Of a DNA stretch of 64,000 bases, positions 16,064-48,268 are shown piece by piece. The position numbers and the translations under genes are program-made. How positions within the stretch are numbered: position 1 is the first letter of the stretch; the number at the start of each line of letters is the position of its first letter. Source of the DNA: Teretinema zuelzerae (lineage in GTDB: Bacteria; Spirochaetota; Spirochaetia; Treponematales; Treponemataceae); assembly GCF_021021555.1 (NCBI RefSeq), contig NZ_JAINWA010000001.1, forward strand, positions 1-64,000. The letters are read 5' to 3'. A model generated the notes under the pieces. The model was not told where the DNA came from. It made no database searches and saw only the letters and a list, made by a program, of their open reading frames with translations.

Positions 16064-16078
16064 GGCCGTCTCCTTACG

Positions 16079-17344: not shown

Positions 17345-17371
17345 AACTTTACCTCTTTTCAAGAATTTCAT

Positions 17372-17766: not shown

Positions 17767-17944
17767 GGCACCCTCAACCAATACTGCGCCGACGGCGAAC
17801 AGCCGATACTTAGTATAACACTTGAAGTTAGAAACCCGCATTATAAGCACAGCAGCCGGATGCCGTTGCCGGTTATATTTCCTAAAAAGGCCGACTATTT
17901 CGCTTGTACCGTTTGATAATCATTGCAATAAAAGGGTTTATCTC

Positions 17945-25580: not shown

Positions 25581-26033
25581 ATGGACTACGATTTTCTGGA
25601 TTGGGCGCGGTTTTGGGCGTTCGCGTTTTTGTACGCGAGGGCGGCGGTAGAGGACGCGAGGACGATGAGGATGCATACCCGTCCACTGGAGGCGGCAGCG
25701 GTTCTGTTTTCGGCGGAAGGTTTCGCGCATTCTGCAGGGTGCGCGGGAGCGGGTTTGTGGTTTCTCGCGGCGAGGACGATGGCGGACGCTGCGGCGGGAG
25801 GAAGGAAGACGGCGGGAAACGGGGACCTTGCGGCGTGCATGCTGCTAGGCGCCTGGGGAGGATTCGAGTTCGCGGCGAAGGCGATAACGGCCGGGACGGT
25901 TTTGTGCACGGGGGCCCTCGTCGATGCGGAATTCAGGAAGGGGAAACGGAGGATGCCCTTTGTGCCGGCGCTCGCGGCGGGTGCGTTGTGGACGATCGCG
26001 TCGGGACTTGCGTCGGGTTTTCTGTCCGGTTGA
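25581..26033 (+). CDS. Reduced prepilin peptidase-like (A24) membrane protein
   Basis: The start ATG 25581 (MDYDFLDWARFW) is preferred to 25470 because the upstream codons encode an implausible Pro-rich stretch; GAAAGG precedes it. The 150-residue protein has about four hydrophobic segments. VEDARTMRMHTRPL recalls the first catalytic Asp motif of A24 prepilin peptidases (usually DLRxRRIPN), and NGDLAACMLLGAWGG recalls the second (GxGDxK). The N-terminal methylase part of PilD/GspO is missing, as in small archaeal-type enzymes. As the first gene of the type II secretion operon, it would process the GspG pseudopilin and related proteins. Motifs are divergent, so activity is uncertain. Confidence 0.6.
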   Translation: MDYDFLDWARFWAFAFLYARAAVEDARTMRMHTRPLEAAAVLFSAEGFAHSAGCAGAGLWFLAARTMADAAAGGRKTAGNGDLAACMLLGAWGGFEFAAKAITAGTVLCTGALVDAEFRKGKRRMPFVPALAAGALWTIASGLASGFLSG

Positions 26034-26097
26034 GGCTTGCTGTTTTTTTTGAAGCGGATATTGGGCCAGAAAGACGGATCGAGGGCGATGTCGGGGC

Positions 26098-28241
26098 ATG
26101 GAACGCATTAGTAATCGCTCGCTTCGATGTCATTGCTTGTTCGCATCATCGCCCGCTCGCTCGCTCGCGGTCTGTCTCGCTCTTTGTCTCTGCGCTTCGC
26201 CGGCGAGGGCGGAAACAAATTCAGGCGGGAAGCTGAAAACCGCGGCCTTCGATTTTGTGAACCAGGAGTACGGGGATATTCTCTACGCGTTGTCTCTCTG
26301 GAGCGGCTTTACGCTGACGGCCGACGACACGGTGAATGGGCGGGCGACGTTCCGGTATCGGGGCGCCGAGTTCCGGGAGGCGTTTTCGCTTTTTCTGAAA
26401 ACTGAAAATCTCTATGCGCAGGAATCAGGCGGGGCGTGGACGGTGTCGAGAATGTCGCTTTCACGGACCGACGGCGGGTCGGAAGCAAACGGCGGGTCGA
26501 GCTCGGCAAGCGGCGGCGATAAAGATGCCGAATGCGAGTGGGTTCTGGACGCGTCGGGGGTGAGCGCGGAGAAGATGCTCGAACGAATTTCGAGGGAGAG
26601 CGGGCGGACCATCGTGTGGGAGGTGCTGCCGAACCGGCTGCTTTCTATCCACGCGCGGACGCAGTCGGTCGACGAACTAGCGGCCCTGGTGATAAAGCCG
26701 TTTCCGGGATGGGCGGCATTCGACGACGGAAGCGCTCTTCACATTAAACAGGCTTCTCTCGGTGAGGCTAATCCTGCCAGGGAGAGCGCGAGCGGTTTAT
26801 ATATAGAAAAAAAAGGAAGTTTGTATTCGGTCGATATCCGGCAGGCGCGGCTCGGCGAGGCGGTGGACCGGCTTTCGCGCGAGGAAGGAAACGCCTGCGT
26901 GAGTCTATTAAAATCAGACCCGATGATAGCCTCTCTCCGCGTCGAGGACCGATCGTGGGACGAGGTGTTCACCCTCGTCGCGGAGCAGGCGGGCGCCGAG
27001 TGGATCGAGAGGGACGGGATACGCTACATCCTGCCGGCCTCCCAGGACGCGCAGAAAAAAATCCGCGAGGGAGGCTGGGATTGGCGGGTGTATACGCTGA
27101 CGAACGTGAGGCCTTCCGGAGCGAAGAACCTTTTGGCCGCGCGTTTTCCGAATCTGCGCTGCGAGGCGGCAGGAGACGGAGGAGTCATCCTCCTGCAGGG
27201 CGAAAGCTCGGCTTTGGAAGAGGGAGAGCGGTATCTCGAGCTGGTGGACAGGAGCCAGCGAAGTTCGCTCGTCGTCCTGAAATATATTTCCGCGGAAGAA
27301 TTATTCAAGAGCCTGCCTCCTTCGGTTAAGAAGGAGGATCTGACGGATACGGGCACCGGGAAGTCGGTGTTCTTTACCGGGCCGGAGGGCTTGAAGAAGA
27401 CTTTTCTCGCAGAGCTTGCCGAGATCGACCGGCCGAAGACACGGTTGCGTTACGACCTGTTGATCATGCAGTTCGAAAGCTCGTCCGCCGTTTCCTGGGG
27501 CACGAGCGCAGAGATGGCGCGCATGGAAAGGGGCGACGCGAGCGCGGTCGCGGGCAGATTCGGAAACCTGCTGGGATTGAACTTCGACGTGATCACCCTC
27601 TTCGGCTATACATTTTCGGCGCGGCTCGACGCGGCTCTTTCGGAGAACCGGGCGAAGGTGTACGCCGACACGACGCTTCACGGCATATCGGGAGAGCGCG
27701 TCTCTTTCAAAAACACGACGACGTACCGCTACCGCGATTCGAACATCGACCCTGAAACGGGGAAACCGATGTATTCGGGGGTGACGAGGGAAATCGTATC
27801 GGGCATCACGGTGGATATTTCGGGCTGGGTGTCCGGCGACGGGATGGTGACGATGACGGTCGCGGCCGCGGTGTCCAAGCGGGGAGCCGACGTAGCCTCG
27901 GCCTCGTCGAATCCGCCGCCTACATCGGAGCGGAACGTAACCACCAAGGTGAACGCCGCCGACGGAGAACCGGTTATTTTAAGCGGACTGCGCCAGGACG
28001 ACCGGAACGAGGGAACGGCCGGAGTACCGATCGTCTCGAAAATTCCGATTCTTGGAAGCCTGCTTTCGCAGCGGGAAAAAAAGAGAGAAAAAACGGAAAT
28101 GGTGATGTACATCGTTCCGCATGTATGCGCCGAAGACAGCGAGGACGACGGAGAGGAAGGCGCGAGGGAGCTCGCGGCGACGGCCTACGAGAGAATCGTC
28201 GCGCCGCGTCTTGTAGAGGCGGCGTACGGGAGGGCGGAAAG

Positions 28242-28245
<4 letters not shown>
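26098..28245 (+). CDS. gspD: Type II secretion secretin GspD-like
   Basis: The 715-residue protein has a signal peptide (LCLCASPARA-ETN). An N0/STN-like domain follows (FVNQEYGDILYALSLWSG, FTLTADDTVNG), then one or two further ring domains (VDRLSREEGNACVSLL, VYTLTNVRPSGAKNLL). The C-terminal secretin domain runs from about 440 to 690, with VSWGTSAEMA, GEPVILSGL, VPIVSKIPILGSLL and VMYIVPHV. It would form the outer-membrane channel of a type II secretion system. A Ser/Gly-rich linker (GGSEANGGSSSASGGDK) lies at about residues 125-140. gspE starts in its last codons (ATGA at 28242-28245), showing tight coupling. Confidence 0.88.
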
Positions 28246-30034
<1,789 letters not shown>

Positions 30035-30038
<4 letters not shown>

Positions 30039-30886
30039 CGGGTAAAAAAAGGGAGGCGTTCATCGAGTCGCTCGGGACGCTCGTGGAAAGCGAATGCACG
30101 GCGCGCGAGGCGCTCACGGTTCTCGCGAAAGAAGACGAAGCCGCCGGAGCTCTCCTTGAACGAATCGAACGGGGCGAGCTCTTTTCTGCGGCCTTTTGCG
30201 AAGAAGGATTCGCGAAGGGCTCCCAATGGAAAGGATTTCTCGCCCTCTTCGAAACGACCGGACGGCTCGATCAGGGGCTCGCCCTTATGAGCGAATCGCT
30301 CGAGCGTTCCGACCGTTTCGCTTCGCGGCTTGCCGGCTCCCTCGCCTACCCGCTTCTCGTCCTCCTTCTGTGTTCGGCCGTTTCCCTGCTCGCCCTCGCC
30401 GTATTCCTTCCGGCCCTGCAAAACTCGAACCTCCCGCTCGATGCTCTCAGCCTCGAGCGGATGCGAACGGGAGCATTGACGGCTCTCGTCTTTCCGCTCG
30501 TCAGCGTTCCCGCCTGCGCGGCTTTTTTCGTCCTGCCGCTGGCGCGAAGGGAAAAAGAAGCCGCGTTCTGGGCAGTCCTTGAACGCCTCGCAAGCTCGAA
30601 GCTTCCGCTCGACCAGTGTTTGCGCGCTTCAGGCGCGAGCGGCGGAATCGAAACGAGGGAACCCTACCTGTACTACTCGCTTTCGTCGGCGGAGACAACC
30701 GGAGACTACGAGCGCGCCTTCGCGAAAAACTCGCGCTACTGCGCCCGGCGGCTCGACGACGCCCATGAACTGTCGGGAAAACTGATGGAGCCGGCTCTCC
30801 TCGGAATCGGCGGAATCGACGTGCTTCTGCTTGCCTGGAATTTCTTTCTGCCGATTCTCTCCGCCGCGGGAAGCATCGGCGCGTGA
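30035..30886 (+). CDS. gspF: GspF-like inner-membrane platform protein, short
   Basis: The 283-residue protein (family norm about 400) has a soluble N-terminal part resembling the first T2SSF domain (FIESLGTLVESECTAREALTVLA, FLALFETTGRLDQGLALMSESLERS). Transmembrane segments follow (AYPLLVLLLCSAVSLLALAVFLP; ALTALVFPLVSVPACAAFFVL), then a shortened second repeat (FWAVLERLASSKLPLDQCLRASG) and a final hydrophobic segment. It is the inner-membrane platform that couples GspE to pseudopilin extraction. It overlaps gspE by 4 nt. The shortening of both halves suggests a minimal system. Confidence 0.8.
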
Positions 30887-30929
30887 CCGTAAACCGAAGC
30901 GAAAACAATACGCACGCCGGGAGGCAACA

Positions 30930-31385
30930 ATGAAAACAACAGTAAACCGCATATCCGAAAGCGCCGGAGAGGACGACGGATTCACCTTCGTGGAAACCCT
31001 CATTGTCCTCGCGATCATGGCGGTGTTGAGCGCGGGGATCGGAATTCCCGCGCTCAGCCACATCGAACGCGCGAGAGAAATTTCTGCGAGGACGCAGATC
31101 GATGCATTCAGGACGGCTCTTCATACCTACAACCTCGACTGCGCGCAATTCCCCACGACAGACCAGGGACTCGCGGCGCTCTGGAAATTACCGGAACTCC
31201 ACCCCGTTCCCGCGAACTGGAGGGGCCCCTACCTCGACCGACCGCCGCGGCTCGACCCCTGGGGATCGCCCTGGCAATACCGGAGTCCGGGAGCGGAGAA
31301 CCTTCCCTGGACGCTCTCGTCCTACGGAGCGGATAAAAAAGAAGGAGGCGAAAAAGATGGCGCGGATATTTCCAGCTTCGACTGA
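30930..31385 (+). CDS. gspG: Major pseudopilin GspG
   Basis: The start ATG 30930 (MKTTVNRISESAG) has GGGAGG upstream; the longer frame from 30831 is within gspF. The prepilin cleavage site is EDDG-FTFVETLIVLAIMAVLSAG, with Glu at +5 and a hydrophobic helix. The C-terminal domain is classic GspG: HTYNLDCAQFPTTDQGLAALW, NWRGPYLDRPPRLDPWGSPWQYRSPG and LSSYGADKKEGG-x-DI. The length of 151 residues is normal. It forms the pseudopilus shaft after processing by a prepilin peptidase, presumably the 25581 product. The next small gene starts inside its last codons. Confidence 0.93.
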   Translation: MKTTVNRISESAGEDDGFTFVETLIVLAIMAVLSAGIGIPALSHIERAREISARTQIDAFRTALHTYNLDCAQFPTTDQGLAALWKLPELHPVPANWRGPYLDRPPRLDPWGSPWQYRSPGAENLPWTLSSYGADKKEGGEKDGADISSFD

Positions 31386-31536
31386 AGAAGGATCAGTCAC
31401 TGCATTCATGATCGCCGCGGTGATCCTTACCATCGCCCTGCTCGGCCTCTGGGAAGCCGGCGTTGCGCGAAGCGAACGCCAGACGGCGATCCTGGAAAAG
31501 GCCCTCGTCGCAGAACAAGCGGAAGACGGCAGATGA
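31357..31536 (+). CDS. Small pseudopilin-like or single-TM protein
   Basis: A 59-residue product starting MARIFPAST and overlapping the gspG end by 29 nt. EEGSVTAFMIAAVILTIALLGLWEAG looks like a pseudopilin or GspK-type start: acidic, Gly, then a long hydrophobic helix. The usual Glu at +5 is absent and only 20 residues follow the helix. In position it replaces the gspH-I-J-K block of full systems. It probably sits in the inner membrane as a minor component; the assignment is by position and shape. Confidence 0.5.
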   Translation: MARIFPASTEEGSVTAFMIAAVILTIALLGLWEAGVARSERQTAILEKALVAEQAEDGR

Positions 31537-31850
31537 ATTACATCGACGTGCTCTGCGCGCTTTGCATCGCGGCAATCGCTCTTCCGCCCCTTGCTTCCAG
31601 AGGCTTCCTCGTCTCGAAACGAGAAGCGGCCGCCGCGATCCGCGCGAAAACGCTCTGCGCTCTCGCGGCCGAGAAACAACTATTCGAGAGCGATTGCGAA
31701 TCGGGAACGCCGGAAGCCGCGCTCAGCCGATGGCCGCAGGCATCCTTCGAAATAGAAGAAGCAGACGGAAAGACCCTCCGCTATTTGCGGATCGAAGCGC
31801 TCGGCCGCCCCTGGTATTTCCCCGGCGAAACGGCGACCGCCGACGACTGA
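31533..31850 (+). CDS. Small pseudopilin-like protein
   Basis: A 105-residue product starting MNYIDVLCALCIAAIALPPLA with one N-terminal hydrophobic helix and a periplasmic-type domain (SFEIEEADGKTLRYLRIEALGRPWYFPG) that resembles the small beta domain of GspI/GspJ minor pseudopilins. No cleavage Gly with +5 Glu is seen before the helix. It overlaps the upstream gene by ATGA. A minor-pseudopilin or assembly role is suggested by position. Confidence 0.5.
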   Translation: MNYIDVLCALCIAAIALPPLASRGFLVSKREAAAAIRAKTLCALAAEKQLFESDCESGTPEAALSRWPQASFEIEEADGKTLRYLRIEALGRPWYFPGETATADD

Positions 31851-31868
31851 CGACGAAAAGGAGGACCC

Positions 31869-33224
31869 ATGCGCGCGACCGCACTCATGCCGGAAGGCTC
31901 GTACAGCTCATATCTGATGGACTATCAAAAACCGAAGCCGTCGACGCGGCAGCAGAACGAGTTTCTTCGCGCCGTCCACCCGTTTTACCCGGACGGCACA
32001 CGCGTCGACCGGAGAACCCTTGACGACGGAAACACCCGCTCGCTCCTGCTCACCCTCGTCTCTGCCCGCCGCGAATATCCGCGCGGAGTCCGCTTTGTGA
32101 CCGCGGAGATGATACGGAATGCAAAACGCATATCCCCGCTTCTCCGCGGCCTGAGTCTTCCCCGGGAAAAAAAGAAAGGAGAATACCACGCGGGAAAAGC
32201 AGCGCTCCTCCTTTCGTCGCTTGTACTTCTCTGCCTTTCCGCGGGCGTACTCGCCTCCTTCCGAAACCCGGGAAGCGCCGCGGAACCCATAGCGGAACCC
32301 ATAGCGGAACCGATTGCGGAAGTCGTCGCATCGGATGAATCAGCGTCGGCGCGTAAGCCGCCGCTCGCCGACGCAACGCCGGCTGATCGGGCCGCGCAGA
32401 GCGAAACCTTTTCCGCGCTTTTTAACTCGGCAATTCGCGCGGCGGCCTTGCATAAGGGAACGGTTCGGGAACTGTCGTTTTCAAGAGGCGAACGGCCGCT
32501 CATGAAAGCGCGCTATGAAATTATAAACGCGGCGGACGCGCTGGCCGGATTCGCGGAGGACGAGAACGGGGTAACCATGGCGAGCGGAGAGATACGCTGG
32601 AACGGAGGCATCGCAGAAGCTCATGTCGAACTTTCAGTCAGAGGCGCCGCGCTTGAACTACAGGGGCAGGATGCGATCCGGCCGGACGCGATCGCGGCGG
32701 ACGCTATCCCGGCAGCAGAGCGCGCGCGGAGGAATCTATCCGAAATGGAACGCCTTGCGCGCGCGACGGGACGGCATCCGCTTTCCGTTCGAACAGCGAA
32801 CGAAAACACCCAGTTTCTCCTGGGCATGGAAATCGAAGAAAACGCGCTCCCGCTTTTTTTCGCCGACCTCGCGAACGCATACCGTGATGCAGGAATGAGA
32901 GTGGAATCGTTCGCTATCCGAAAGAAACCGACAGACGACTCCTTATTTTGCATCGACGCGGAATTGCGCGCGGAAACGGAAACCGCTTTACACCCGACAC
33001 CACTTCCTCCCGAGGACATGATTCGCAAAGCCTTCGCCAGTAAAAAAAAGAATGCGAACAAACCGGCGGGACTCGCGGTGCGAACGAAGGCCGCGGATGA
33101 GGTCGAGGGGACGATCATCGGAAACATCGAGGAGGAGGACGGCTCGCGCTGGATATTCACGCGGCTCGGCGACGGCACGGTGCGGGAGCGGCTCGCATCT
33201 AGCGAAAAGGAGATTCTGAAATGA
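31869..33224 (+). CDS. Single-TM assembly-like protein of the secretion operon
   Basis: The start ATG 31869 has AGGAGG. The 451-residue protein has a 100-residue cytoplasmic part (with PFYPDGTRVDRRTLDDGNTRS), one transmembrane helix at about 112-132 (AALLLSSLVLLCLSAGVLAS), a short tandem repeat (three copies of AEPI) and a large periplasmic alpha/beta region (about 180-450). The layout matches GspL or PilN/GspM-like proteins that link ATPase to secretin, but sequence similarity is not recognised. It is coupled to the next gene by an ATGA overlap (33221-33224). It is likely a lineage-specific replacement for GspL/M. Confidence 0.5.
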   Translation: MRATALMPEGSYSSYLMDYQKPKPSTRQQNEFLRAVHPFYPDGTRVDRRTLDDGNTRSLLLTLVSARREYPRGVRFVTAEMIRNAKRISPLLRGLSLPREKKKGEYHAGKAALLLSSLVLLCLSAGVLASFRNPGSAAEPIAEPIAEPIAEVVASDESASARKPPLADATPADRAAQSETFSALFNSAIRAAALHKGTVRELSFSRGERPLMKARYEIINAADALAGFAEDENGVTMASGEIRWNGGIAEAHVELSVRGAALELQGQDAIRPDAIAADAIPAAERARRNLSEMERLARATGRHPLSVRTANENTQFLLGMEIEENALPLFFADLANAYRDAGMRVESFAIRKKPTDDSLFCIDAELRAETETALHPTPLPPEDMIRKAFASKKKNANKPAGLAVRTKAADEVEGTIIGNIEEEDGSRWIFTRLGDGTVRERLASSEKEILK

Positions 33225-33763
33225 ACAATATCAAGGCGTTCGCGCGCGAGGTCTCGCGGGCGATTTTGCTCTGTGCATTGCTATGTTCCTGCGCGACGGC
33301 GAAGCCCTTCGGAAGAACGGGAACCCTGCAAGGGATGATTTACGACACGGCGAACCGGCCGGTTCCCGGCTATGCGATCGGGACGGGCGCGTTCAACAAA
33401 ACTGAAACAGACATCAACGGACGGTTCGCGCTCGAGCGGGTTCCCTACGGCGAGACGGTGCTTCGGGGCGAAGGGAAACGCCATGCGTCGGTTTCGCAAA
33501 CGGTCGAGTTCTCCGATCCGCGCATTGTCGCGTACATCCGCGTTCCGTCGAGAATCGCGGTGTATCGGCAGATCGACGGCGCGCTTTCTGAAGGAGGCGC
33601 GGAGGAAGCGCGGGCGCTGCTCGAATCGCTACCGGAGGAAGAGCGGGTGACCCGGGCGTGGAATGTGTACGCAGCGATAGGCGATTGGCTTGCCTCCGGC
33701 TCGGAACGCGAAGACGAAGCGCTTGAACGGGTCGAGCGTTGGGCGAAGGAGGTTCGCGAATGA
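33221..33763 (+). CDS. Lipoprotein with carboxypeptidase-regulatory-like domain
   Basis: A 180-residue protein with a lipoprotein signal (AILLCALLCSC, Cys at about 24). A CarboxypepD_reg-like beta-sandwich follows (GTLQGMIYDTANRPVPGYAIGTGAFNKTETDINGRFALERVPYG), then a helical C-terminal part (GGAEEARALLESLPEEERV). Such lipoproteins can act as secretin pilotins or as surface scaffolds. Position between the assembly-like protein and the cargo genes fits a pilotin-type accessory role; that is inference. Both ends overlap neighbours by ATGA. Confidence 0.65.
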   Translation: MNNIKAFAREVSRAILLCALLCSCATAKPFGRTGTLQGMIYDTANRPVPGYAIGTGAFNKTETDINGRFALERVPYGETVLRGEGKRHASVSQTVEFSDPRIVAYIRVPSRIAVYRQIDGALSEGGAEEARALLESLPEEERVTRAWNVYAAIGDWLASGSEREDEALERVERWAKEVRE

Positions 33764-34242
33764 ATGTACGGACAACGGCCGGTCTCGCGGTATTGATCGC
33801 CGCGCTGACGGCATTCGGTTGCGCGGCGGACGGCGGCGAGTTCTTCGAGCTGTTCGCAAACGGCGGAGCAAAACCCTGCGTGGTTTCGGCACCGAAAATG
33901 TCGATCGGCGAGTCGGCGGGAAACTTCGCTATCGCGGGAATCGTATTCGACGCGATCAATTGCTCGAATAAGGAAATATCGGAAATCGAAGCGGTCATGT
34001 TCTGCACGAATTCGAGCGGAGAGCCGGTAGAGATCGCCGGCGGAAACCCGGTGCTGGCGCGGGCGGAAATATCTCTGGCGCCGGGAGAGCGGAAAACGCT
34101 CGCTCTCAGCCTCGACGCAAAACTCAACTCGATTCCCGAAGAAAACTGGACCATCGATCCGTGCGAAATCGTACGGGTCTCTTTCAGCGACGGCTCGAGC
34201 TGGCGGGACCGGTCGTTTTTCGCGATCGGCGTGGAGGACTGA
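33760..34242 (+). CDS. Small lipoprotein of the secretion operon
   Basis: The start ATG 33760 overlaps the previous stop. The 160-residue protein has a signal and lipobox (LIAALTAFGC, Cys at about 21). The mature domain is beta-rich (FAIAGIVFDAINCSNKEISEIEAVMFC, ISLAPGERKTLALSLDAKL) and resembles FxLYD/immunoglobulin-like small domains that handle strand pairing in lipoproteins. No firm family call. It lies directly before the C11-protease gene (one-base gap). Confidence 0.6.
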   Translation: MNVRTTAGLAVLIAALTAFGCAADGGEFFELFANGGAKPCVVSAPKMSIGESAGNFAIAGIVFDAINCSNKEISEIEAVMFCTNSSGEPVEIAGGNPVLARAEISLAPGERKTLALSLDAKLNSIPEENWTIDPCEIVRVSFSDGSSWRDRSFFAIGVED

Positions 34243-34243
34243 T

Positions 34244-37200
34244 ATGAAACGAGGTACGCTATCGGGTTTTCGCGCGCTCGCGATCAAAACTGCTCTCCTT
34301 GTCGTTCTGAGTTCCTGTTCGAAGGATCTTCCCTTCGAGCGGCTGGCGGAATTCGCAGTTCCAGAACAGCCGGCGCCGAAAGGCTTCGCCGTTCAAACTG
34401 ACGACGCTCCGGGAGGGAGGATTGAACGGTCTCCGATGAAAACCGCCTACGAGGCAGGAGAGCTTGTTCGAGTCTCCGCCCTTCCCTCGGCCGGCTGGGA
34501 GTTTTCAGGCTGGGGCGGCACGATCTCGGGAACGGAAAAGACGACGGAGAATCCGCTCGTCCTGAACGTCGAAAAAGACGAGTGGATCATTCCACGCTTC
34601 GCGCGCGTTCCCGAACCGGCAGTACCGCCGCCGCCCGACCCGGAACCCGTCTGGTCGATCCGCTGCGACTCGGCTCGCGGAGGAATCGCGGAAACCTCGC
34701 CGATTAAAACCGGATACGCCACCGGAGAACTCGTAAAAATGACGGCCGTTGCTGACGAAGGATGGACCTTCGCCGGATGGTTCGGCACGGCGGAAACGGA
34801 TTCGCTCGATCCGGTGCTGGTGATCCAGGCGGCGCGGGACGAATGGATAATTCCCCGATTTACGGAAATCCCCGCGCCCGACGCTCCGCCGGAGGAACCG
34901 CGATGGACGCTACGGGTCGACGGAGCCGAGGGCGGAGTCGCGAGCTTTGAGCCGGGAAGCTCGAGCTACGCTTCAGGCGATTATGTAAAGCTTTCGGCTG
35001 AATGCTCTGAAGGATGGCGTTTCCTCGGTTGGACGGGAACGGCTGAAAGCGCGTCGAACCCGCTCATTATTACTATTGAACGGAGCGAATGGATCGTGCC
35101 CCTGTTCGAGAAAATTCCCGAACCTCCGATTGAAGAGATCCCGGAACCGGTCCGCTGGAAGATCCGCGTCGATGATCGGCCAGGCGGAAGCGTTACAGCG
35201 GAACCGGAGAAAACAGAATACGAAGACGGCGAACAGGTGCGGTTGATCGCGCAATGCGAAAGCGGCTGGAAATTCGCCGGCTGGAGCGGAACGCTGGAAA
35301 AATCGGGATCGATGGATGTCGGCGACGAAATACTCCTCATCGAAGCGCGGGCGAACGAGTGGATTATTCCGCTTTTCAGAGAAGAAGCTGAAGTTCTCCC
35401 CGAGCCGCCGCCTGAACGTTTTACCGTAAAAATAGACTCTGCCGAGGGAGGATCGGTCGAACGGTCTCCCGCTTCCATGGATTATGCGCCTGGAGAATTC
35501 GTCAGGCTCGCCGCGACGGCGCAAGCCGGTTGGGAGTTCGCCGGATGGTCGGGAACCATCGGCGACAGTGCGGCAACCGGAATCCGCAACAATCCATACA
35601 TCCTCGAAGTGCGGCGAAACGAGTGGATCATCCCGGTCTTCAGCAGAATCCCGGAGCCTGAACCGAAACCCGAGCCCGAACCCGAGCCTCCGCCGAGATT
35701 GTATACCCTCAAAACCGAATCTTCGGCCGGAGGATCAGTACGCGCGGTTCCTTCGAAGACGGGCTATGCGGAAGGCGAGTATGCAAGAATTACGGCGGTT
35801 CCCTCGCCCGGCTGGCGATTCAGCGGTTGGAGCGGAACATACGCGGGCACTGAAGACGACATTTTTATCCGCATGACGGACGACCAGTGGATTGTCGCCA
35901 AGTTCGCTTTAATTCCGGTCGCGGCGGAATACACGCTAAACTCGACCGTTTCGGGAAGCGGCCGGATCATCCGCTCTCCGGAGAAGGCCGTGTATGCGGC
36001 CGGCGAGACGGTCGAACTGGCAGCCGAGCCTTCCCCCGGATACCGCTTCGTCGAATGGACGGGAGATCTTTCCGGGGACGCGGAAAACGAGACCATCAAG
36101 ATGAACGCGAATGCCTCGGTATCCGCGCGATTCGAAAAAAGAGAATGGACCTTCATCGTATATATGGCGGCAGACAACGATCTGGAAGCGGCGGCTATTC
36201 TCGATATCAATGAAATGGAAGCGGCGGAAACCGGCTCGATGAAGGGAGACATCCTGGTGTTGATCGACAGGAGCCCCGCCTACGATTCAACGAACGGAAA
36301 CTGGAGCGACACGAGGCTCTACAAAATCAAGCGGGACCCGGCCGGATCCGACACGGTAATCCGGTCGCAGAGAATCGAGTGCCCCGCGCTCGGCATAACG
36401 GAGAACCAGCAGACGGAGCTCGATCTCGCGCTCCCGAGCACGCTTTCGCTGTTGCTCGACCACGCGAAGACGGCGTATCCGGCGGCGAATTACGGGCTCA
36501 TTTTCTGGGGCCACGGTACCGGCTGGAGGTCGGATGAAACTGCGGGCGGAAGTCCCGCAGAAAGCATGAAGGCCCTGGCCATAGACGATACGTCGGGAAC
36601 TTCCATGACCCTCGCGCAGGCGGGAAACGCCGTTCGAAACAGGGGGATCGCCGCGATCGGCATGGATACCTGCTTCGGAGGAATATTAGAAGTGGCGAGG
36701 GAATTTTCGGATTGCGCCGCATGGCTCGTCGGATCGCCGGGAGCGATTCCTTCCGCCGGCTGGAATTACGCGGCGCTGTTCACCCTCTTCGGAACAAGCT
36801 CACTGACCGCTGAACAATTCGCCTCCGCGGCCGTGGATCAGTTTCGCGTCCAATACGCGCTGACTCCGAATACCGGCATATCGGCGATACGTCTTTCGGC
36901 CGTCCCTGCGCTCTCGTCCGTCTTCAACGCCTTCATGGAAAATGCGGCCGCGGGGATTCAAAACAGATCGTCTCAGACTCTTCTTAAATCGATTGCCATG
37001 GATGATTCGCGGCTATATCGATTCGCTTCATACCCGACCGATTCCTATATCGATATCAGGTCGTTCGCAGATTTGATTCTCTCGGCGCGCGACGGACTTT
37101 TTTCTTCGGCGACAATAAAAAACCGCGCCCTTACGCAGGCCGCAAGCCTTAAAACCGCGCTGAACGCGGCTGTTCCCCTCGGCTGGGAACAGGGAGGTCA

Positions 37201-37402
37201 AGGCGAAGGGCATATGGGCGTCCACCTCATTCCGCTGATGGCTCAGGGAACGCCGAAGGCGAGCCACGAGGCGGGCTACATTCGCGGATCGGGAGCGGCG
37301 AATCAAAGCCGCTTCGTCCTTGAATCTACCGGATGGGTCCCGAACAAGACTGCCGCGGGCAGCCTCCTGGACAAACTCTTTTATACCTATTTTGAGGATT
37401 AA
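34244..37402 (+). CDS. Lipoprotein with seven InlB-type repeats and a clostripain (C11) protease
   Basis: The 1052-residue protein has a lipoprotein signal ending VVLSSC (Cys25). Between about residues 50 and 630 are seven repeats of the divergent InlB B-repeat type, each with GG-x-(I/V)-x-x-P, a YxxGE step and GWxFxGWxG. These are joined by Pro/Glu-rich spacers (PEPEPKPEPEPEPPP). The C-terminal 420 residues are a C11 peptidase: WTFIVYMAADNDLE, then LIFWGHGTGW (His757) and GMDTCFGG (Cys810), the catalytic dyad. Clostripain-type enzymes cut after Arg or Lys. As a lipoprotein beside the secretion and Rhs genes, it may be exported and process the toxin or surface targets; that link is inference. 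Confidence 0.85.
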   Translation: MKRGTLSGFRALAIKTALLVVLSSCSKDLPFERLAEFAVPEQPAPKGFAVQTDDAPGGRIERSPMKTAYEAGELVRVSALPSAGWEFSGWGGTISGTEKTTENPLVLNVEKDEWIIPRFARVPEPAVPPPPDPEPVWSIRCDSARGGIAETSPIKTGYATGELVKMTAVADEGWTFAGWFGTAETDSLDPVLVIQAARDEWIIPRFTEIPAPDAPPEEPRWTLRVDGAEGGVASFEPGSSSYASGDYVKLSAECSEGWRFLGWTGTAESASNPLIITIERSEWIVPLFEKIPEPPIEEIPEPVRWKIRVDDRPGGSVTAEPEKTEYEDGEQVRLIAQCESGWKFAGWSGTLEKSGSMDVGDEILLIEARANEWIIPLFREEAEVLPEPPPERFTVKIDSAEGGSVERSPASMDYAPGEFVRLAATAQAGWEFAGWSGTIGDSAATGIRNNPYILEVRRNEWIIPVFSRIPEPEPKPEPEPEPPPRLYTLKTESSAGGSVRAVPSKTGYAEGEYARITAVPSPGWRFSGWSGTYAGTEDDIFIRMTDDQWIVAKFALIPVAAEYTLNSTVSGSGRIIRSPEKAVYAAGETVELAAEPSPGYRFVEWTGDLSGDAENETIKMNANASVSARFEKREWTFIVYMAADNDLEAAAILDINEMEAAETGSMKGDILVLIDRSPAYDSTNGNWSDTRLYKIKRDPAGSDTVIRSQRIECPALGITENQQTELDLALPSTLSLLLDHAKTAYPAANYGLIFWGHGTGWRSDETAGGSPAESMKALAIDDTSGTSMTLAQAGNAVRNRGIAAIGMDTCFGGILEVAREFSDCAAWLVGSPGAIPSAGWNYAALFTLFGTSSLTAEQFASAAVDQFRVQYALTPNTGISAIRLSAVPALSSVFNAFMENAAAGIQNRSSQTLLKSIAMDDSRLYRFASYPTDSYIDIRSFADLILSARDGLFSSATIKNRALTQAASLKTALNAAVPLGWEQGGQGEGHMGVHLIPLMAQGTPKASHEAGYIRGSGAANQSRFVLESTGWVPNKTAAGSLLDKLFYTYFED

Positions 37403-37403
37403 C

Positions 37404-40400
37404 ATGATGAAAACACCCAGTAAACGGATTTTAGCCGCCATGCTTATTTCATGGCTGACGAGCGCTCATGCTCAGAATACGCCGGGACAGACATACGTCA
37501 GCTACGACTCTGTAAACGGAAGAACGACCTACACAGTGCCGGGAGGAGAAGCGGAAAGCGGAGGCGAAAGCGGCGGTTCGAGCGCCGGAGACAGCACCAA
37601 CGCCGATATTGCGGAAGCTGAATCGATCGTCTCGGAAGCCGCATCGCTTAAGACGGAAGTTGCCGCGGAAACAGATAAATCGAAGGAAGCAGCTGAAACC
37701 GCAAAGGCAGAAGTCTCCGAGGAAAAGGCGAACGCCGATTCCGACAAAGCGGGAGATCCGGTCAGGATAACGACGGGCGAGTTCTATCTTGAAGAATCGG
37801 ACTTCGAGTTTCCGCGGATCTACGCGAGCAATTCTCCCGGCGGTCCTTCCTTCGGGAAAGGGTGGTTTTTCTTCGCCGATTCGCGCATCATCCGCGGAGT
37901 CGATATCGGAGCGCTCAGCGCGAAAAACAGAATCAAAAGCCGGATAATCGATCCGCTTCAAGAAAAATGGGAGCGCGCCGATCTTCTCGCCGCCCGGACG
38001 GCGTCCTGCGCGGATGAAGCCCGGGAAGCGAAACGCATATTGAATGAAGCGCTCGAAGAATACGAACTCGTCAGGGATCAGGCAGATCGCGCAATGGCTC
38101 TCGCGTCCCGCAACACGCTGTCCTGGTGGAGCGGATTGCCGATTGGATGGATGGGCATAGGAAACGACTCGTTGCTCTTGATAAATCCCGAAGGAGTTCC
38201 GCATATTTTCATTCCGGACGGCGCCGGCGAATGGAAAGCCCTCGACCCGGACGCGGCCCGAACCGACAGGATCGCCAGCATCGACCGCGCGGACGCGCTT
38301 TCAGCGCAAGGGTTCGTGTATACCGCATCGGACGGCGCATCGTACCGCTACGATTCAAACGGACTGCTGATCCGGGCGGAAAAACGCAATCCTTACGGAG
38401 ACCCGCTGATTCGGGAAATCTCGCGGAATACAGCGACCGGCGGAATACGGGAAATCATCGACGCCTACGGGTACCGGTACGCGGTCGAAGGCGAGAGGCA
38501 GCGCATCGACGCGATCGTCGACCCGCTGGGGAGAAAAATCGTATACAACCATGGAAGCGACGCGTTGAGTTCCGTCACGGACTTTGAAAACGACTCGATA
38601 GGATACGGGTATTCCCTGGGCAGATTGGCCGAAATCGTAAAACCCATGAACGCGAAAACAAAAATCATTTACGGACAAACCGATCGGAAAGGAAGGCCTC
38701 TGGTTACCGAAACCGTTAACGAGGAAGGACACCCGGAATATTTTGAGTACCGCCCGGCTGAACGGAAAACGCTGTGGACCTCTCCGGACGGAGACAGAAA
38801 AATAATCGAGTGGGATGAATTGCACCGGACGGTATCGATCGAGGAAAGCGGAAAGCCGACTATCAGATATATCAGAGATCAGGCGACCGGAGACGTGCTC
38901 CGGGAAGAAAGCATGCAGGGAACGACCGTGCATGAATACGACCAGCGGGGAAACAGAACAACGACGCTTTATCCCGACGGTTCGCGCGAGATTCTGAGCT
39001 TCGATGAAAACGACCGGCTCGTCGAGCGACTAAGCCGGGGCGGAACGCTTGAAACCTATCAATGGGATGCATGGGGAGTATCCGGAGTCTTCAGAGAAGG
39101 ACGGCCTCTTAAAACGATCGAGCGGAATCAAAACGGATTCATCGTCAAAATCGTTGAAGACGGAAAATACATCGCGAACATCCAACGCGATGCGCATAAC
39201 AAACCGATACGGATTCTCCAGGGTGCAGGAGACGAAATCATCCAGTCCGATCTTGCGTGGGACTCGGCGGGACGAATAATTTCTTTCATCGACGGCGAAC
39301 GAAGAAAAATTGAATGGAAATACGGACGCCATGCAATGATAATTTTCGATCAGGCTGGCCTCGAAACCTCGTGGAAATGGAATAGCAGAAAAGACATCGT
39401 CGAGATTATCGAGAAGGACACGGTGGGCGGAGAAACGAGAAAAAGGGAAACAGTATTCGACAAACGGCACCTGCCCCTCAAGGAAACGCTGAACGGAAAG
39501 GAAATCGCGCGATACGCCTGGACGGCCAAAGGAAAAAAAGCGTCGATCATCCGGGGGAGACTCCGCACGGACTTTGCATATTCAATAGAAGGAAAAGAAG
39601 AGCTGACGCAAACATATGCCGGCAGCGAACCGTTCCGCATCGTCAGGACTAAAGAGCTAACGCCGTCCGGAGCGATCATCACCGTTCAGGACGGGTCGAA
39701 TAGAGCGCAAACGCTGCGCTACGACAGCGAAAACCGGCTGTTATCGAAGCAAAGCGGAAATCTCGCGCCTGAATCTTTTGCATGGGACCCTGACGGATCT
39801 ATCGCCCGATTAGAAACCCGCCTGGGAGGAATCGTCGACCTGCAGGGAAACAAAAAAACCGGAGAGTTCAAACAGTTCCGAAACGGCGAACTGGCTTCGC
39901 GGATGGTTAAGAGCCCTGCGGGTAAAATTCTTGAATACACCGACGAAAACGGAAGCCTCGTTTCAAACGAATACGATTCGACTGGTTTTTTGATTCGGGA
40001 ACGACGCAGCGCCGGATTTGTTTCGTACGAACGGGATAAGACGGGAACAGCGGTTTCGCGGAACGTGTTCGGTGCCGACGGAGAGTTGATCGAATCAGTG
40101 TCGATATCGCGCTCGCATGATCTTCGCTCTGCGGTCGTCCTGGAAGGCGGAATATACCGCAGGGAATACCGGCTCAACGGATGGGGGGAAGTCACAGGAT
40201 TCGCCGACGGGGAAAACAACCTCCGCTCGTTTGATCGGGACGCGTTCGGCCGCGTTGAGGTCGAAACCGATCCGTACGGAAATGAGACCCGCTATGAATA
40301 CGACGATTTCGGGGAGATTTCGAAAATCGTGTATTGCGACGGCTCCTTCGAGGCATACGAACGAAACTCGGCAGGACTCGTCGTCCGGGAAACAGACGCA

Positions 40401-42815
40401 GCTGGAGTTTCGGCAGAATACGACTACGACGCAGGAGGCAGACGCATCTCCGAATATACACGCGGAGGGGTGCGCCTTTCCCGTACATTTGATGATAGCG
40501 GGCGGACGCAAACGCTTAACCGTGGAGACGATAACGCCCTCGTCTTCAATTTCGAATATTCTTCCGACGGAAAAACTATCGCTTCCAAAGACGCTTCCGG
40601 AAACTCCATGATCTCGGTCTTCGACGGATTCGGCCGCCTGGTCGGGGAAACAAACAGACTGCATGTTTCATCGACGCATCGGTGGGATGCCCGAAGCCGC
40701 GCGATAGAAGGCATCGATGGAAACGGGGTCAAGACTTCAAGGAGATATATCTCGGACGGAAGCAAAATAATCGAAGAAACCGGCGGCGGCGGCAGAATCG
40801 AAATAATCAAGGACGCCGCCGGAAGGGAGATCGCGAGAGGCAACGACACGACGAAAATCGAATTCGATTTCGATCAGGCTGGACGAATCGTCGGACAGAA
40901 AGATGCGTTGAGCGGCGCTGAAATGCAATTCTTCTATGATAAGGCCGGTCGGATGATCCGCGCGAAGGGAAGCGGGAGAGACGTCAGACGGCGGTTGGGA
41001 AAAAACGATGAAATCCTGGAACTAAGGGATCTGTCCAACGGGTTAACGATAACGTTCGCATACGATGCTCGAGGAAGAGAAATTCGCAGAACCTTCGCTA
41101 ACGGCATACAGATCGAGCGCGGATACGACGAGGCGGGAAGAATCAGTTGGATACGCGAAAAAAAGATAACAGGGGAAATACTGAGAGCCGAAGCGTGGGC
41201 TTACGATGAAAACGGAAGGCGCCGGCTGGGGGTCGACGAAGAGGGAATGATAACGCGATACTCATGGAATTCGCGCGGAGAGCTGGTCTGCGCAGAAACG
41301 CCGGCGGATGCGGAGGGAGGAGATGGGTTGGAGCGGGTTATTTTTTCGCCTGAAGACATCCGCACGGCTGTTTCGCTCATGGGGAAATTTCTACCCGGTG
41401 CGGCTCCCTCAGTCAGCGAATCGCAGGTGGTCCGCAAAGAACGCTATGCCTACGACCAAAATGGAAACATGACCGAAATCAGGCTCGGAGGAAGTTCTAT
41501 TCGAATGGAATACGACGCGGAAAACAGATTGACTAAGCGAGGCGAGGCCTCATTTTCGTACGATAAAAACGGCAATCTCGTGAAAATGTTTGACTTGCGA
41601 AATTCGCTAGTATGCTCGTATAATGACAAAAACAGGATGGTCCGTTCGGTCGTTGCCGACGGAATGAGAAACTCGATCGTATCGACGGATTACGCGTACG
41701 ACGGGTACGGCCGGCGCTCGTCTATCCAGGATGACGGAGCCGGAGCTATGGTCGCCAGTTATATCGGCACGGAGTTTGATATGTTTTCAGTGAAGCCTGT
41801 TCAATCTGCCGCTTTCGCTACCGACGATTCTTCCGGCTCGAGGTATCGATGGATCGGAGATGCCGAGTCCTCCCGCTCGACTTCCGTGCCGTCGCCGTCC
41901 GGCGGTGAGACTGCGCATTCGCTGTCATCCCGCGAGCTTCTGACCCTGGGAGGATTCCCGGCGGCTTCATCGGTCGACGGAGCGAACTACTACTACGGAA
42001 TATCCGTGAACGAATCCGTCGCCTCTCTCTCCGACGAGTCCGGCGCTTTCCAAAAGCTGCCGCGCATGAACGCGTTCGGCGGAATCGATGAACTCGCTTC
42101 AAACTCGTCTCTGCTCGGTTCATCCGTATTCGACCATCCCTCCTTCGTCTCCAAATACCGCTCGCCCGCCACCAGTTTGATGGACTTCGGCTACCGCGAC
42201 TACGCCCCCTCCCTCGCCCGCTTCACCACCCCCGACCCCATCCGCGACGGCTACAACTGGTACACCTACTGCGCCTCCGACCCGATTAATTTCGTGGACT
42301 TGTGGGGATTACTCCTTACGCTTTCTGTGGATAAGGACAGTCAAAAGATGACCATTACATTTAAGGACGGTCAAATAACATCGACTAAAACAATCAATGT
42401 TACAACAGCTGTTGTGTCAAAAAAAAACAGTAAGAATAATACAACATTTAATGAAGACGCCAACCGCACTCAACAAACAGGCGACTCAACTACGCATCCC
42501 ACTCAATTTCCTAACGGAACATATGATGTTACCGGCACTATGAAACCAAGCGATTCAAGGTTTGGAGAAACGCAATTTATCACGAACGCTTCGCAAATGT
42601 TGAAAAACACAGAAGGCAATTTTGTTAAGGACATGGGGTATAATATTCATTTTACACCATTGACAAATACAAATGGCTGCATTGGTATTCTTAATCAAGC
42701 GGATATGGATTCTCTTCTCAGTATTCATGCTATGAACGTCGACACTTTTGACAACAGAACGATTGTTAACGTATTTGGAAATTCAACAGTAGGCGAGGGA
42801 AACAAAAACAAATGA
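37404..42815 (+). CDS. Sec-signalled Rhs/YD-repeat polymorphic toxin with a YkuD-like C-terminal tip
   Basis: The start ATG 37404 (MMKTPSKRILAAML) follows GAGGATTAAC. The 1803-residue protein has a signal peptide (cleavage near SAHA-QNT), a Glu/Ala-rich helical region (60-130), a DUF6531-like entry (GDPVRITTGEFYLEESDFEFPRIY), and many YD repeats (YDSENRLLSKQSG, YDEAGRISWIREK). The Rhs core ends at YRDYAPSLARFTTPDPIRDG and NFVDLWG (residue about 1634). The last 170 residues are a different, AT-rich domain with GTYDVTG, YNIHFTP and NTNGCIGIL. This is the His...GC(I) signature of YkuD-like L,D-transpeptidases (Tlde1-type toxins), which attack peptidoglycan. It is the last large gene of the secretion operon. 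Confidence 0.87.
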   Translation: MMKTPSKRILAAMLISWLTSAHAQNTPGQTYVSYDSVNGRTTYTVPGGEAESGGESGGSSAGDSTNADIAEAESIVSEAASLKTEVAAETDKSKEAAETAKAEVSEEKANADSDKAGDPVRITTGEFYLEESDFEFPRIYASNSPGGPSFGKGWFFFADSRIIRGVDIGALSAKNRIKSRIIDPLQEKWERADLLAARTASCADEAREAKRILNEALEEYELVRDQADRAMALASRNTLSWWSGLPIGWMGIGNDSLLLINPEGVPHIFIPDGAGEWKALDPDAARTDRIASIDRADALSAQGFVYTASDGASYRYDSNGLLIRAEKRNPYGDPLIREISRNTATGGIREIIDAYGYRYAVEGERQRIDAIVDPLGRKIVYNHGSDALSSVTDFENDSIGYGYSLGRLAEIVKPMNAKTKIIYGQTDRKGRPLVTETVNEEGHPEYFEYRPAERKTLWTSPDGDRKIIEWDELHRTVSIEESGKPTIRYIRDQATGDVLREESMQGTTVHEYDQRGNRTTTLYPDGSREILSFDENDRLVERLSRGGTLETYQWDAWGVSGVFREGRPLKTIERNQNGFIVKIVEDGKYIANIQRDAHNKPIRILQGAGDEIIQSDLAWDSAGRIISFIDGERRKIEWKYGRHAMIIFDQAGLETSWKWNSRKDIVEIIEKDTVGGETRKRETVFDKRHLPLKETLNGKEIARYAWTAKGKKASIIRGRLRTDFAYSIEGKEELTQTYAGSEPFRIVRTKELTPSGAIITVQDGSNRAQTLRYDSENRLLSKQSGNLAPESFAWDPDGSIARLETRLGGIVDLQGNKKTGEFKQFRNGELASRMVKSPAGKILEYTDENGSLVSNEYDSTGFLIRERRSAGFVSYERDKTGTAVSRNVFGADGELIESVSISRSHDLRSAVVLEGGIYRREYRLNGWGEVTGFADGENNLRSFDRDAFGRVEVETDPYGNETRYEYDDFGEISKIVYCDGSFEAYERNSAGLVVRETDAAGVSAEYDYDAGGRRISEYTRGGVRLSRTFDDSGRTQTLNRGDDNALVFNFEYSSDGKTIASKDASGNSMISVFDGFGRLVGETNRLHVSSTHRWDARSRAIEGIDGNGVKTSRRYISDGSKIIEETGGGGRIEIIKDAAGREIARGNDTTKIEFDFDQAGRIVGQKDALSGAEMQFFYDKAGRMIRAKGSGRDVRRRLGKNDEILELRDLSNGLTITFAYDARGREIRRTFANGIQIERGYDEAGRISWIREKKITGEILRAEAWAYDENGRRRLGVDEEGMITRYSWNSRGELVCAETPADAEGGDGLERVIFSPEDIRTAVSLMGKFLPGAAPSVSESQVVRKERYAYDQNGNMTEIRLGGSSIRMEYDAENRLTKRGEASFSYDKNGNLVKMFDLRNSLVCSYNDKNRMVRSVVADGMRNSIVSTDYAYDGYGRRSSIQDDGAGAMVASYIGTEFDMFSVKPVQSAAFATDDSSGSRYRWIGDAESSRSTSVPSPSGGETAHSLSSRELLTLGGFPAASSVDGANYYYGISVNESVASLSDESGAFQKLPRMNAFGGIDELASNSSLLGSSVFDHPSFVSKYRSPATSLMDFGYRDYAPSLARFTTPDPIRDGYNWYTYCASDPINFVDLWGLLLTLSVDKDSQKMTITFKDGQITSTKTINVTTAVVSKKNSKNNTTFNEDANRTQQTGDSTTHPTQFPNGTYDVTGTMKPSDSRFGETQFITNASQMLKNTEGNFVKDMGYNIHFTPLTNTNGCIGILNQADMDSLLSIHAMNVDTFDNRTIVNVFGNSTVGEGNKNK

Positions 42816-43471
42816 ATAGCAGAACCCTAACCTTTATCCCATTGCTCCTTTTCTTGATCTTCCTTTCCAGCTTTTTCATCAGTTGCAATACATCTGAGTA
42901 TATTGTTGATTTTGATTCGACAAATGACACCTCGAAAATACTGGCAGTGTCAAAAAATAAGGAAAGGATCATTCTTGACGAGTACCCCCTATTTCCTGGA
43001 CTAACAAGAGATAGCATATTAGTGAATAGAGCTGGAGCATTCTATGAAAATGGAAACGTTCTTGTTATGGTACCAAATAAAAATACAACAAAAAATATTA
43101 TAGCATGGAATGATTTTTCATATTTAATCGATATTATTTTTATTGAGCCCGGAAATAAAAGAATCACGACGCTTTTCAGCAATCATGATAGTTATGTCAG
43201 CATTGTACCAGATGCAAAAGCAACACATGCGATAATCGCATTCGATAGAGATAAGACGCTGACTCTGCTTCGTGTAGACCAAAAAGGAAAAATACTTCAG
43301 GAGGTTCAATACAAATATCGTGTGCTATATCCTGATTTCATCGGCGTAACAGAAAAAACCGGGAAAGAAGTTATCACCTTATCATGTATTGAAAATGAAG
43401 AGAAAATTTCCATAGATTGGAAAAACGGAATCATCACGCAGATTTCGTATATGGAATCTCAATACGAATAA
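42812..43471 (+). CDS. Candidate immunity lipoprotein for the Rhs toxin
   Basis: The start overlaps the Rhs stop (ATGA). The 219-residue product has a lipoprotein signal (LLLFLIFLSSFFISC, Cys at about 25) and a beta-rich mature region (KILAVSKNKERIILDEYP, YVSIVPDAKATHAIIAF, LTLLRVDQKGKILQEV) that looks like a beta-propeller fragment. Immediately following the toxin tip, sharing its low GC, and being exported, it is well placed to neutralise a periplasmic peptidoglycan-acting toxin. No immunity family is recognised, so the role is inferred from context. Confidence 0.65.
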   Translation: MNSRTLTFIPLLLFLIFLSSFFISCNTSEYIVDFDSTNDTSKILAVSKNKERIILDEYPLFPGLTRDSILVNRAGAFYENGNVLVMVPNKNTTKNIIAWNDFSYLIDIIFIEPGNKRITTLFSNHDSYVSIVPDAKATHAIIAFDRDKTLTLLRVDQKGKILQEVQYKYRVLYPDFIGVTEKTGKEVITLSCIENEEKISIDWKNGIITQISYMESQYE

Positions 43472-43495
43472 TTCTTGAAATTCGACAAAACAACT

Positions 43496-43528
43496 GGTTA
43501 CTCCTATACTAGGGGTAACCGTTTTTTT
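43496..43528 (+). terminator. Terminator of the secretion/toxin operon
   Basis: Stem GGTTACTCC (43496-43504) with GGGGTAACC (43512-43520), 7-nt loop, then a T-run to 43528. It lies 24 bp past the immunity gene and marks the operon end. Confidence 0.88.
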
Positions 43529-47534: not shown

Positions 47535-47631
47535 ACTTCTATTATATCCACTCGCGCAAAAAAAGGAAATAAAATGCGTGCGCTCTCAACCTGCGGTAAG
47601 CTTAACACGCTTCACTTTTGCGCTCCCCGCC

Positions 47632-48268
47632 AACCGCCAGCGTACCTCGCTTTTCCGCGCGCACTCCCCGCCAACCGCCAGCGCGTCACGCTTTCCCGCG
47701 CGCTCACCGCCAACCGCCAGCGCCGCTCGCTTTCCCGCGCGCTCACCGCCAGCCGCCAGAGTACCTCGCTTTCCCGCGCGCGCTCACCGCCAACCGCCAG
47801 CGTACCTCGCTTTCCCGCGCGCTCACCGCTAACCGCCAGCGTACCTCGCTTTCCCGCGCGCTCTCACCGCCAACCGCCAGCGCAACACGCTTTCCCGCGC
47901 GCTCATTCGCCAACCGCCAGCGCAACACGCTTTCCCGCGCACTCACCGCTAACCGCCAGCGTACCTCGCTTTCCCGCGCGCACTCACCACCAACCGCCAG
48001 CGTACCTCGCTTTCCCGCGCGCTCCCCACCAACCGCCAGCGCGTCACGCTTTCCCGCGCGCTCCCCGCTAACCGCCAGCGTACCTCGCTTTCCCGCGCGC
48101 ACTCACCGCCAACCGCCAACGCCGCACGCTTTCCCGCGCGCTCACCGCTAACCGCCAGCGTACCTCGCTTTCCCGCGCACTCACCGCCAACCGCCAGCGT
48201 ACCTCGCTTTCCCGCGCGCACTCACCGCCAACCGCCAGCGTACCTCGCTTTCCCGCGCACTCCCCGCC
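47632..48268. repeat. 16-unit ~39-bp minisatellite with hairpin cores
   Basis: Sixteen units of 38-42 bp fill the gap between two minus-strand genes (47535-48301). Each has AACCGCCAG, then CG plus a variable five-base loop plus CGCT (AGCG-N5-CGCT stem), then TTCCCGCGCG and a CACC- or CCCC-ending joint. Loop variants include TACCT (most common), CGTCA, CCGCT, CAACA and CCGCA. Degenerate GCGGTAAG-containing sequences flank the array at both ends (47593-47600 and 48270-48277). Open frames running through it are by-products of the repeat. Confidence 0.9.

Follow-up and report, generated by a model that had tools for sequence, protein, structure and literature searches.

How do Sec-signalled polymorphic toxins leave bacteria that have two membranes? 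The question is raised by an operon of the spirochaete Teretinema zuelzerae that occupies positions 25581-43471 of the 64,000-nucleotide stretch analyzed here (contig NZ_JAINWA010000001.1, positions 1 to 64,000, forward strand; ‘the window’). It encodes core components of a type II secretion system (T2SS), a C11 (clostripain-like) protease and an Rhs protein. Sec-signalled polymorphic toxins have been tagged ‘T2SS/Sec’ by their signal peptide only, no neighborhood genes forming part of the signature (Zhang 2012; PMC3482391); the T2SS label for such toxins thus rested on the signal peptide. Here the machine itself adjoins the toxin gene, and it does so across a whole bacterial family, which opens the question of Rhs export to test in cultured strains. 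In the Treponema family the operon is one co-inherited unit that comprises a reduced T2SS, a C11 protease and, in most genomes, a large Rhs protein. In T. zuelzerae the tip of this protein is a predicted cell-wall enzyme, which suggests that the T2SS serves to export a weapon aimed at competing bacteria. In the literature searched, which left subscription journals and preprints outside, we found no paper describing C11 and Rhs genes as integral parts of a T2SS operon.

A conserved and co-inherited operon

Searching with GspD, the secretin of the operon, across spirochaete genomes and listing the genes alongside it, we find the arrangement repeatedly. Scanning genome contigs, we obtained 80 named Treponema/Spirochaetales loci, mostly from metagenome-assembled genomes and many of them cut at contig ends, but including the cultured T. 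ruminis RU1, T. bryantii B25 and NK4A124, and Treponema sp. JC4. The recurring order is gspD-E-F-G, one or more small genes, a gene of ~410-460 amino acids (aa), a lipoprotein with a CarboxypepD-reg-like domain, a second lipoprotein, and C11; seven of the first 10 relatives fetched via GspD hold it. C11 is present in 58 of the 80 loci, and 55 loci extend at least 1.2 kb past it, far enough to be tested for Rhs linkage. The gene that follows C11 is Rhs by phmmer in 33 of these, and about seven more have diverged or cut YD-repeat proteins there, judged by eye (~40 of 55 in total). Since the same gene order recurs across the family, the linkage is beyond chance. It has probably been under-counted, because in two genomes (G001 and G002) the operon runs off its contig and a separate contig carries C11 beside Rhs.

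The association extends to whole genomes. Among 245 genomes of the family, an Rhs core match occurs in 85 of the 93 that have GspD of class A, the class concerned here, versus 16 of the 152 that do not (Fisher p ~3e-39, relatedness not corrected; classes assigned in part manually, using the listed matches). In genomes with strong Rhs matches, 54 of 84 operons have Rhs on the same strand and no more than 16 kb downstream. A second class of T2SS, class B, forms a complete system, with separate genes for a minor pseudopilin, a GspK-like protein of ~300 aa, a GspL-like and a GspM-like protein, and shares the CarboxypepD-reg lipoprotein with class A. Of 26 genomes that have class B alone, one has Rhs, and the two class B examples without Rhs that we checked were also without the second lipoprotein and C11. 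The association with class A is not a strict one, since Rhs genes stand beside complete class B systems at two loci, L146 (1-12074) and L150 (1-9210). Pairwise protein distances, compared over 34 loci, are correlated for GspD and GspE (0.94), GspD and C11 (0.82), GspD and Rhs (0.85), and C11 and Rhs (0.90). Such correlations of protein sequences show co-inheritance, not function.

In the T. zuelzerae genome (3.6 Mb, three contigs) the operon GspD is the sole secretin, and, PilT-like proteins aside, there is one GspE-type assembly ATPase. There is a single C11, and RHS-repeat matches are, among the matches listed, confined to the single Rhs frame. A type VI secretion system (T6SS) sheath (VipB/TssC) was sought in the genome and none was found, and we dropped T6SS-mediated Rhs export for this genome on that account. 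The earlier note on this DNA, made from its letters alone, had linked the machine to C11 and Rhs; the linkage is upheld, being conserved, co-occurring and co-inherited. Nor does a separate, complete T2SS explain Rhs export here, there being no second secretin. A partial second copy of gspD was considered as a second system and rejected; it belongs to the redundant end of its contig.

A pared-down secretion machine

The operon consists of 13 plus-strand open reading frames (ORFs) without internal stops (Table 1), tightly packed as first noted. Six junctions are ATGA (-4) overlaps and one is a -29 overlap; the remaining gaps are 64, 43, 18, 1 and 1 bases. The proposed terminator also proved to be present, and strong. 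ORF calling was simple throughout, and starts were corrected for gspE (28242), gspG (30930), the second lipoprotein (33760) and Rhs (37404).

Table 1. Features of the T. zuelzerae operon, in window coordinates
Feature	Position	Strand	Basis
Prepilin-peptidase-like protein (GspO-like), 150 aa	25581..26033	+	DAR and GNGD motifs; PF01478 sub-threshold
gspD, outer-membrane secretin, 715 aa	26098..28245	+	PF00263 94 bits
gspE, assembly ATPase, 598 aa	28242..30038	+	PF00437 310 bits
gspF, inner-membrane platform, 283 aa	30035..30886	+	PF00482 59 bits
gspG, major pseudopilin, 151 aa	30930..31385	+	PF08334 103 bits; TIGR01710 121 bits
59-aa single-helix protein	31357..31536	+	Small ORF, one hydrophobic helix
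105-aa GspI-type pseudopilin without leader peptide (predicted)	31533..31850	+	ATGA-overlapping start; MNYIDVLCAL
451-aa fused GspL-GspM-like assembly protein (predicted)	31869..33224	+	AlphaFold2 model, structural alignment
CarboxypepD-reg-like lipoprotein, T2SS core accessory	33221..33763	+	PF13620 E=1.2e-4
160-aa probable lipoprotein, marker of C11/Rhs-type operons	33760..34242	+	Position before C11
C11 (clostripain-like) protease lipoprotein, 7 InlB B-type repeats	34244..37402	+	PF03415, PF18998
Rhs protein, 1803 aa	37404..42815	+	PF05593 152 bits; TIGR03696 core
Rhs toxin tip, L,D-transpeptidase fold (predicted)	42309..42812	+	YkuD E=2.3e-4; model pLDDT 81
Candidate immunity lipoprotein, 219 aa	42812..43471	+	ATGA overlap with Rhs stop codon; lipobox FISC
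Intrinsic terminator closing the operon	43495..43521	+	12-pair stem, then T7

The core genes are readily named. GspD scores above the PF00263 cut-off, and its best NCBIfam model is likewise GspD, at 85.8 versus an equivalog cut-off of 351; it is thus a divergent member, and its full-length relatives are 35-47% identical. GspE, GspF and GspG all exceed their Pfam cut-offs, and GspG also exceeds the NCBIfam equivalog cut-off (TIGR01710). The prepilin-peptidase candidate falls under the PF01478 (A24) cut-off (E=0.012); both catalytic-Asp motifs can be read in it, and it is the sole A24-like match in the whole genome. A degenerate 21-bp tandem repeat of ~16 copies lies in frame within gspE (29492-29838), between the two CxxC pairs of the C-terminal zinc-binding region; no long insert of this kind was seen in shorter relatives.

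That the T2SS is reduced, as the earlier note had it, is borne out. Its claim that GspC, GspH-K, GspL and GspM are unrecognizable holds for the sequences, the minor pseudopilins H, I, J and K giving zero family matches by Pfam; it no longer holds for structure and N-terminal pattern, by which a GspL-GspM fusion and a GspI-type pseudopilin can now be predicted. Nor is the 451-aa protein of a novel kind, as had been supposed. Pfam and NCBIfam are blank for it, and a BLAST-level search of whole genomes recovered only the protein itself among 59 genomes; its kind emerged only from operon position, alignment and folding combined. An AlphaFold2 model built from 54 such positional homologues (mean pLDDT 76) places a small cytoplasmic domain before a single transmembrane helix (103-130); then come two periplasmic domains of ferredoxin-like fold and, at the C terminus, a domain of three strands. 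Residues 178-257 best match the periplasmic domains of GspL proteins (XcpY, Z 7.7, 2.1 A over 78 residues; PulL, 7.2; EpsL, 6.9), with PilO close behind; for residues 284-370 the match is EpsM (Z 4.9, 2.4 A over 74 residues), and for residues 8-74 it is PilM (Z 5.1). Such Z values are moderate, and the ferredoxin-like fold is widespread. Combining domain order, topology and operon position, we predict that the protein is a fused, shortened GspL-GspM. Its C-terminal domain (415-443) might stand in for GspC.

The two small genes that follow gspG may encode shrunken pseudopilins. Mature GspI begins with Met at +1 and has Glu at +5, and the 105-aa protein begins in the same way, with Met at mature +1 and an acidic residue at +5. 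Its equivalents were compared over 53 loci, a few of them mis-assigned to gspG: residue 5 itself is E or D in 37, an ATGA-coupled start occurs in 35, and only two could have a Gly(-1) leader. Because this pattern equals that of mature GspI, the protein is apparently a pseudopilin of the GspI type that is made without a leader. A small ORF with a single hydrophobic helix holds the position of the 59-aa gene in many relatives, and we tentatively view its product as the N-terminal helix of a GspK-like pseudopilin minus the globular domain. Of the two accessory lipoproteins, the CarboxypepD-reg protein occurs in both T2SS classes, has a lipobox in most relatives, and is a possible pilotin; the 160-aa protein recurs immediately upstream of C11, and a lipobox is usual among its relatives.

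In canonical T2SSs (Gsp/Out/Xcp), as here, secretin, ATPase, platform and major pseudopilin genes occur in this order, the GspL-like and GspM-like periplasmic folds occur (here by prediction), and both lipoprotein and soluble passengers depend upon Sec. The operon differs in its predicted fusion of GspL and GspM into a single short protein, in its apparently reduced minor pseudopilins (one without a leader, the other of ~60 aa), and in the cargo genes that lie inside it. T2SSs are few outside the Proteobacteria in an earlier survey (PMC4793230), and have been detected already in Spirochaetes (PMC6668835). The chlamydial T2SS, which has been described as being without homologues of the minor pilins and GspLM (PMC6668835), is similarly reduced, non-Proteobacterial, and missing GspL and GspM as judged by sequence; here, by contrast, an equivalent of GspL-GspM is predicted from its fold, and protease and toxin cargo are linked. 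The operon indicates how far a T2SS may be pared, to GspL and GspM in one protein and a pseudopilin apparently independent of the prepilin peptidase, and so bears on how pseudopili assemble.

The Rhs protein, its tips and the protease

The Sec-signalled Rhs protein and C11-protease lipoprotein described from the letters are confirmed by Pfam and NCBIfam scores, an SPI-type signal and a lipobox. Following its Sec signal peptide (SPI-type), the Rhs protein has YD/RHS repeats, the core site DPINFVDLWGL and a 168-aa tip; the core match (TIGR03696, 54.8 bits) is over the cut-off. C11 scores 124 bits with PF03415 and 207 bits with PF18998, matches clostripain (9cip, E=2.8e-14), and has the lipobox LSSC, read from the sequence. 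In relatives, C11 and both accessory proteins mostly have lipoboxes and Rhs mostly SPI signals, all of these called by a home-made heuristic rule.

For the tip we predict an enzyme that acts on bacterial cell walls, similar to L,D-transpeptidases and carboxypeptidases. By itself it lies just under the Pfam cut-off for YkuD (22.2 versus 23.4), and nine of 15 homologues match the family, the best with E=7.6e-8. The model aligns with Csd6 (Z 13.5), Pgp2 (13.3), YkuD (11.5) and Tlde1a (9.8), and residues Y111, H114, T121, G123 and C124 are invariant in the 15 homologues. Tlde1 effectors of the T6SS share the L,D-transpeptidase fold and the spacing of ten residues between His and Cys: these are H121 and C131 in Tlde1a (PMC9638812), and H114 and C124 here. 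They differ from the tip in that it is carried by an Rhs body beside a T2SS, has Asn instead of the second motif His, and matches the Pfam Tlde1 family marginally, in one homologue. L,D-peptidase domains have been mentioned in polymorphic toxins before (PMC3482391).

Rhs tips are exchangeable. This one is 50-53% identical to the tip of an Rhs protein whose body is only 30% identical, and it is found in short stand-alone frames as well. Sharing between divergent bodies and stand-alone frames is a signature of module swapping in polymorphic toxins. Five loci (L135, 10075-12764; L146, 3996-4889; L166; L170; and L172) have short frames that contain part of an Rhs core, a tip, or both; some of these frames precede small exported proteins, as orphan toxin cassettes near to or away from the main Rhs gene. 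Other tips on linked or family Rhs proteins are C39-like, ‘FDCADVS’-type or M23 (M23 E=1.7e-16). Profile searches with three tip families against the sequences of solved structures gave nothing meaningful. Apart from one weak Peptidase_C39_2 match, the C39-like and FDCADVS-like tips are unnamed, and we therefore do not claim that all tips are cell-wall enzymes.

The gene directly after a tip is where periplasmic immunity is expected to be encoded. Where enough sequence follows an L,D-transpeptidase-type tip, there is usually an overlapping or almost abutting gene for a small protein that is exported or a lipoprotein. In T. zuelzerae this gene is that of the 219-aa lipoprotein, by its sequence and position a candidate immunity protein; a homologue of it was sought beside related tips and not found. 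With ‘T2SS/Sec’ Rhs/YD toxins in general the protein shares a signal peptide, RHS repeats, the core self-cleavage motif, exchangeable tips and an adjacent immunity gene, here a candidate; it is unlike them in that T2SS genes themselves adjoin, and do so across a family. At four loci (L117, L119, L132 and L162), Rhs genes with FDCADVS...GHT tips are followed by a DegP/HtrA-like gene or by one on the opposite strand.

What the machine may export, and its surroundings

Export of Rhs by the T2SS, with a tip that acts on bacterial cell walls, is in our judgment probable. In outline, Sec would take C11 and Rhs into the periplasm, as their signal sequences indicate. The reduced T2SS may then move both across the outer membrane to the surface; the linkage, the co-occurrence and the lack of any second secretin point this way. 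C11 would remain anchored as a surface lipoprotein, and the Rhs shell, by analogy with the Rhs family, would enclose the tip and self-cleave at the conserved DPxNxxDxxG-L site. C11 might conceivably process a surface target or Rhs, though processing of Rhs we consider less likely than not. Within a neighboring bacterium, the tip would attack peptidoglycan, as its predicted fold and catalytic residues suggest, and the overlapping 219-aa lipoprotein, from its position and lipobox, may shield the producer’s envelope. The locus thus points toward a weapon system in abundant gut spirochaetes. A wider proposal, that this is a distinct Treponema-family subtype of T2SS for interbacterial attack, with a minimal machine, fused GspL-GspM, a leaderless pseudopilin, Rhs proteins with exchangeable tips that are mainly cell-wall enzymes, and an obligatory surface protease, we advance tentatively and with rather less than even confidence.

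Several observations weigh against toxin export as the task of this machine. About 15 of the 55 testable loci stop at C11 or run into unrelated genes; with machine and C11 intact there, the main substrate may be C11, and Rhs may only be carried along. Several genomes have Rhs on another contig or elsewhere, and five have strong Rhs matches without a class A secretin. Because the genomes share vertical descent within a family, the Fisher and Mantel statistics are both inflated. GspC has no family match among the operon proteins, and a globular GspK was not found. Lastly, the FDCADVS-like and several of the C39-like tips have no obvious adjacent immunity gene; for the FDCADVS...GHT tips, either self-toxicity is absent or immunity is encoded elsewhere.

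The earlier note’s description of the machine as dedicated to the toxin is accordingly right in part: Rhs linkage is conserved, but C11 is the more constant partner, and around one-quarter of operons are without adjacent Rhs. One could suppose instead that the T2SS serves to display or secrete C11, and that Rhs is a frequent hitchhiker at the 3' end that leaves by another route or stays periplasmic. Essentially all operons of testable length contain C11, which is usually a lipoprotein, as are the known T2SS substrates pullulanase and SslE. We think this rather unlikely, because the Rhs core tracks the class A T2SS over the 245 genomes even where Rhs lies elsewhere, C11 and Rhs are strongly correlated in distance, and the T. 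zuelzerae genome has neither a T6SS sheath nor another secretin. 

Two further readings are improbable. In the first, the operon would build a short type IV pilus-like fiber for adhesion or predation that Rhs and C11 decorate or process, secretion not being its job. Homology links T2SSs to type IV pili, the secretin gives a score with PilQ as well, the 451-aa protein starts with a PilM-like domain, and PilT-like ATPases are encoded elsewhere in the genome. Yet GspG exceeds a T2SS equivalog cut-off, the periplasmic domain matches GspL of T2SSs ahead of PilO, the operon has neither pilT nor a PilA-like major pilin, and the candidate minor pseudopilins have contracted, not grown. It is also hardly likely that the tip remodels the producer’s own peptidoglycan, in the manner of Csd6 and Pgp2 in helical cells. 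These cell-shape carboxypeptidases are its best structural matches and the host is a spirochaete, but the tip is swapped between Rhs bodies, is replaced in relatives by unrelated domains including M23, and occurs in short stand-alone cassettes; moreover, a machine for export across the outer membrane makes no sense for remodeling one’s own wall.

The surroundings of the operon have features of their own. The PilT-like ATPase frames (342 aa) lie at 510127 and 1564464 of contig C1 and at 18740 of contig C2 (genome G000); two have identical scores and are on different contigs, perhaps through duplication in the assembly. Window positions 1-26629 repeat at C1:1577603-1604152 of the same genome (loci L023 and L142) with 99.1-99.6% identity, the differences being almost only indels. 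This is an untrimmed circular overlap of the two ends of C1, which may then be a closed circle of ~1.58 Mb. Positions 1-18000 have a GC content of 0.31-0.48, versus ~0.6 nearby, and include a 1749-aa ORF (6731-11980) that is ArdC/RadC-like by eye and a probable transposase (16079-17371); this segment is likely a mobile element. Downstream of the operon, a 39-bp tandem array of ~16 copies occupies 47620-48268.
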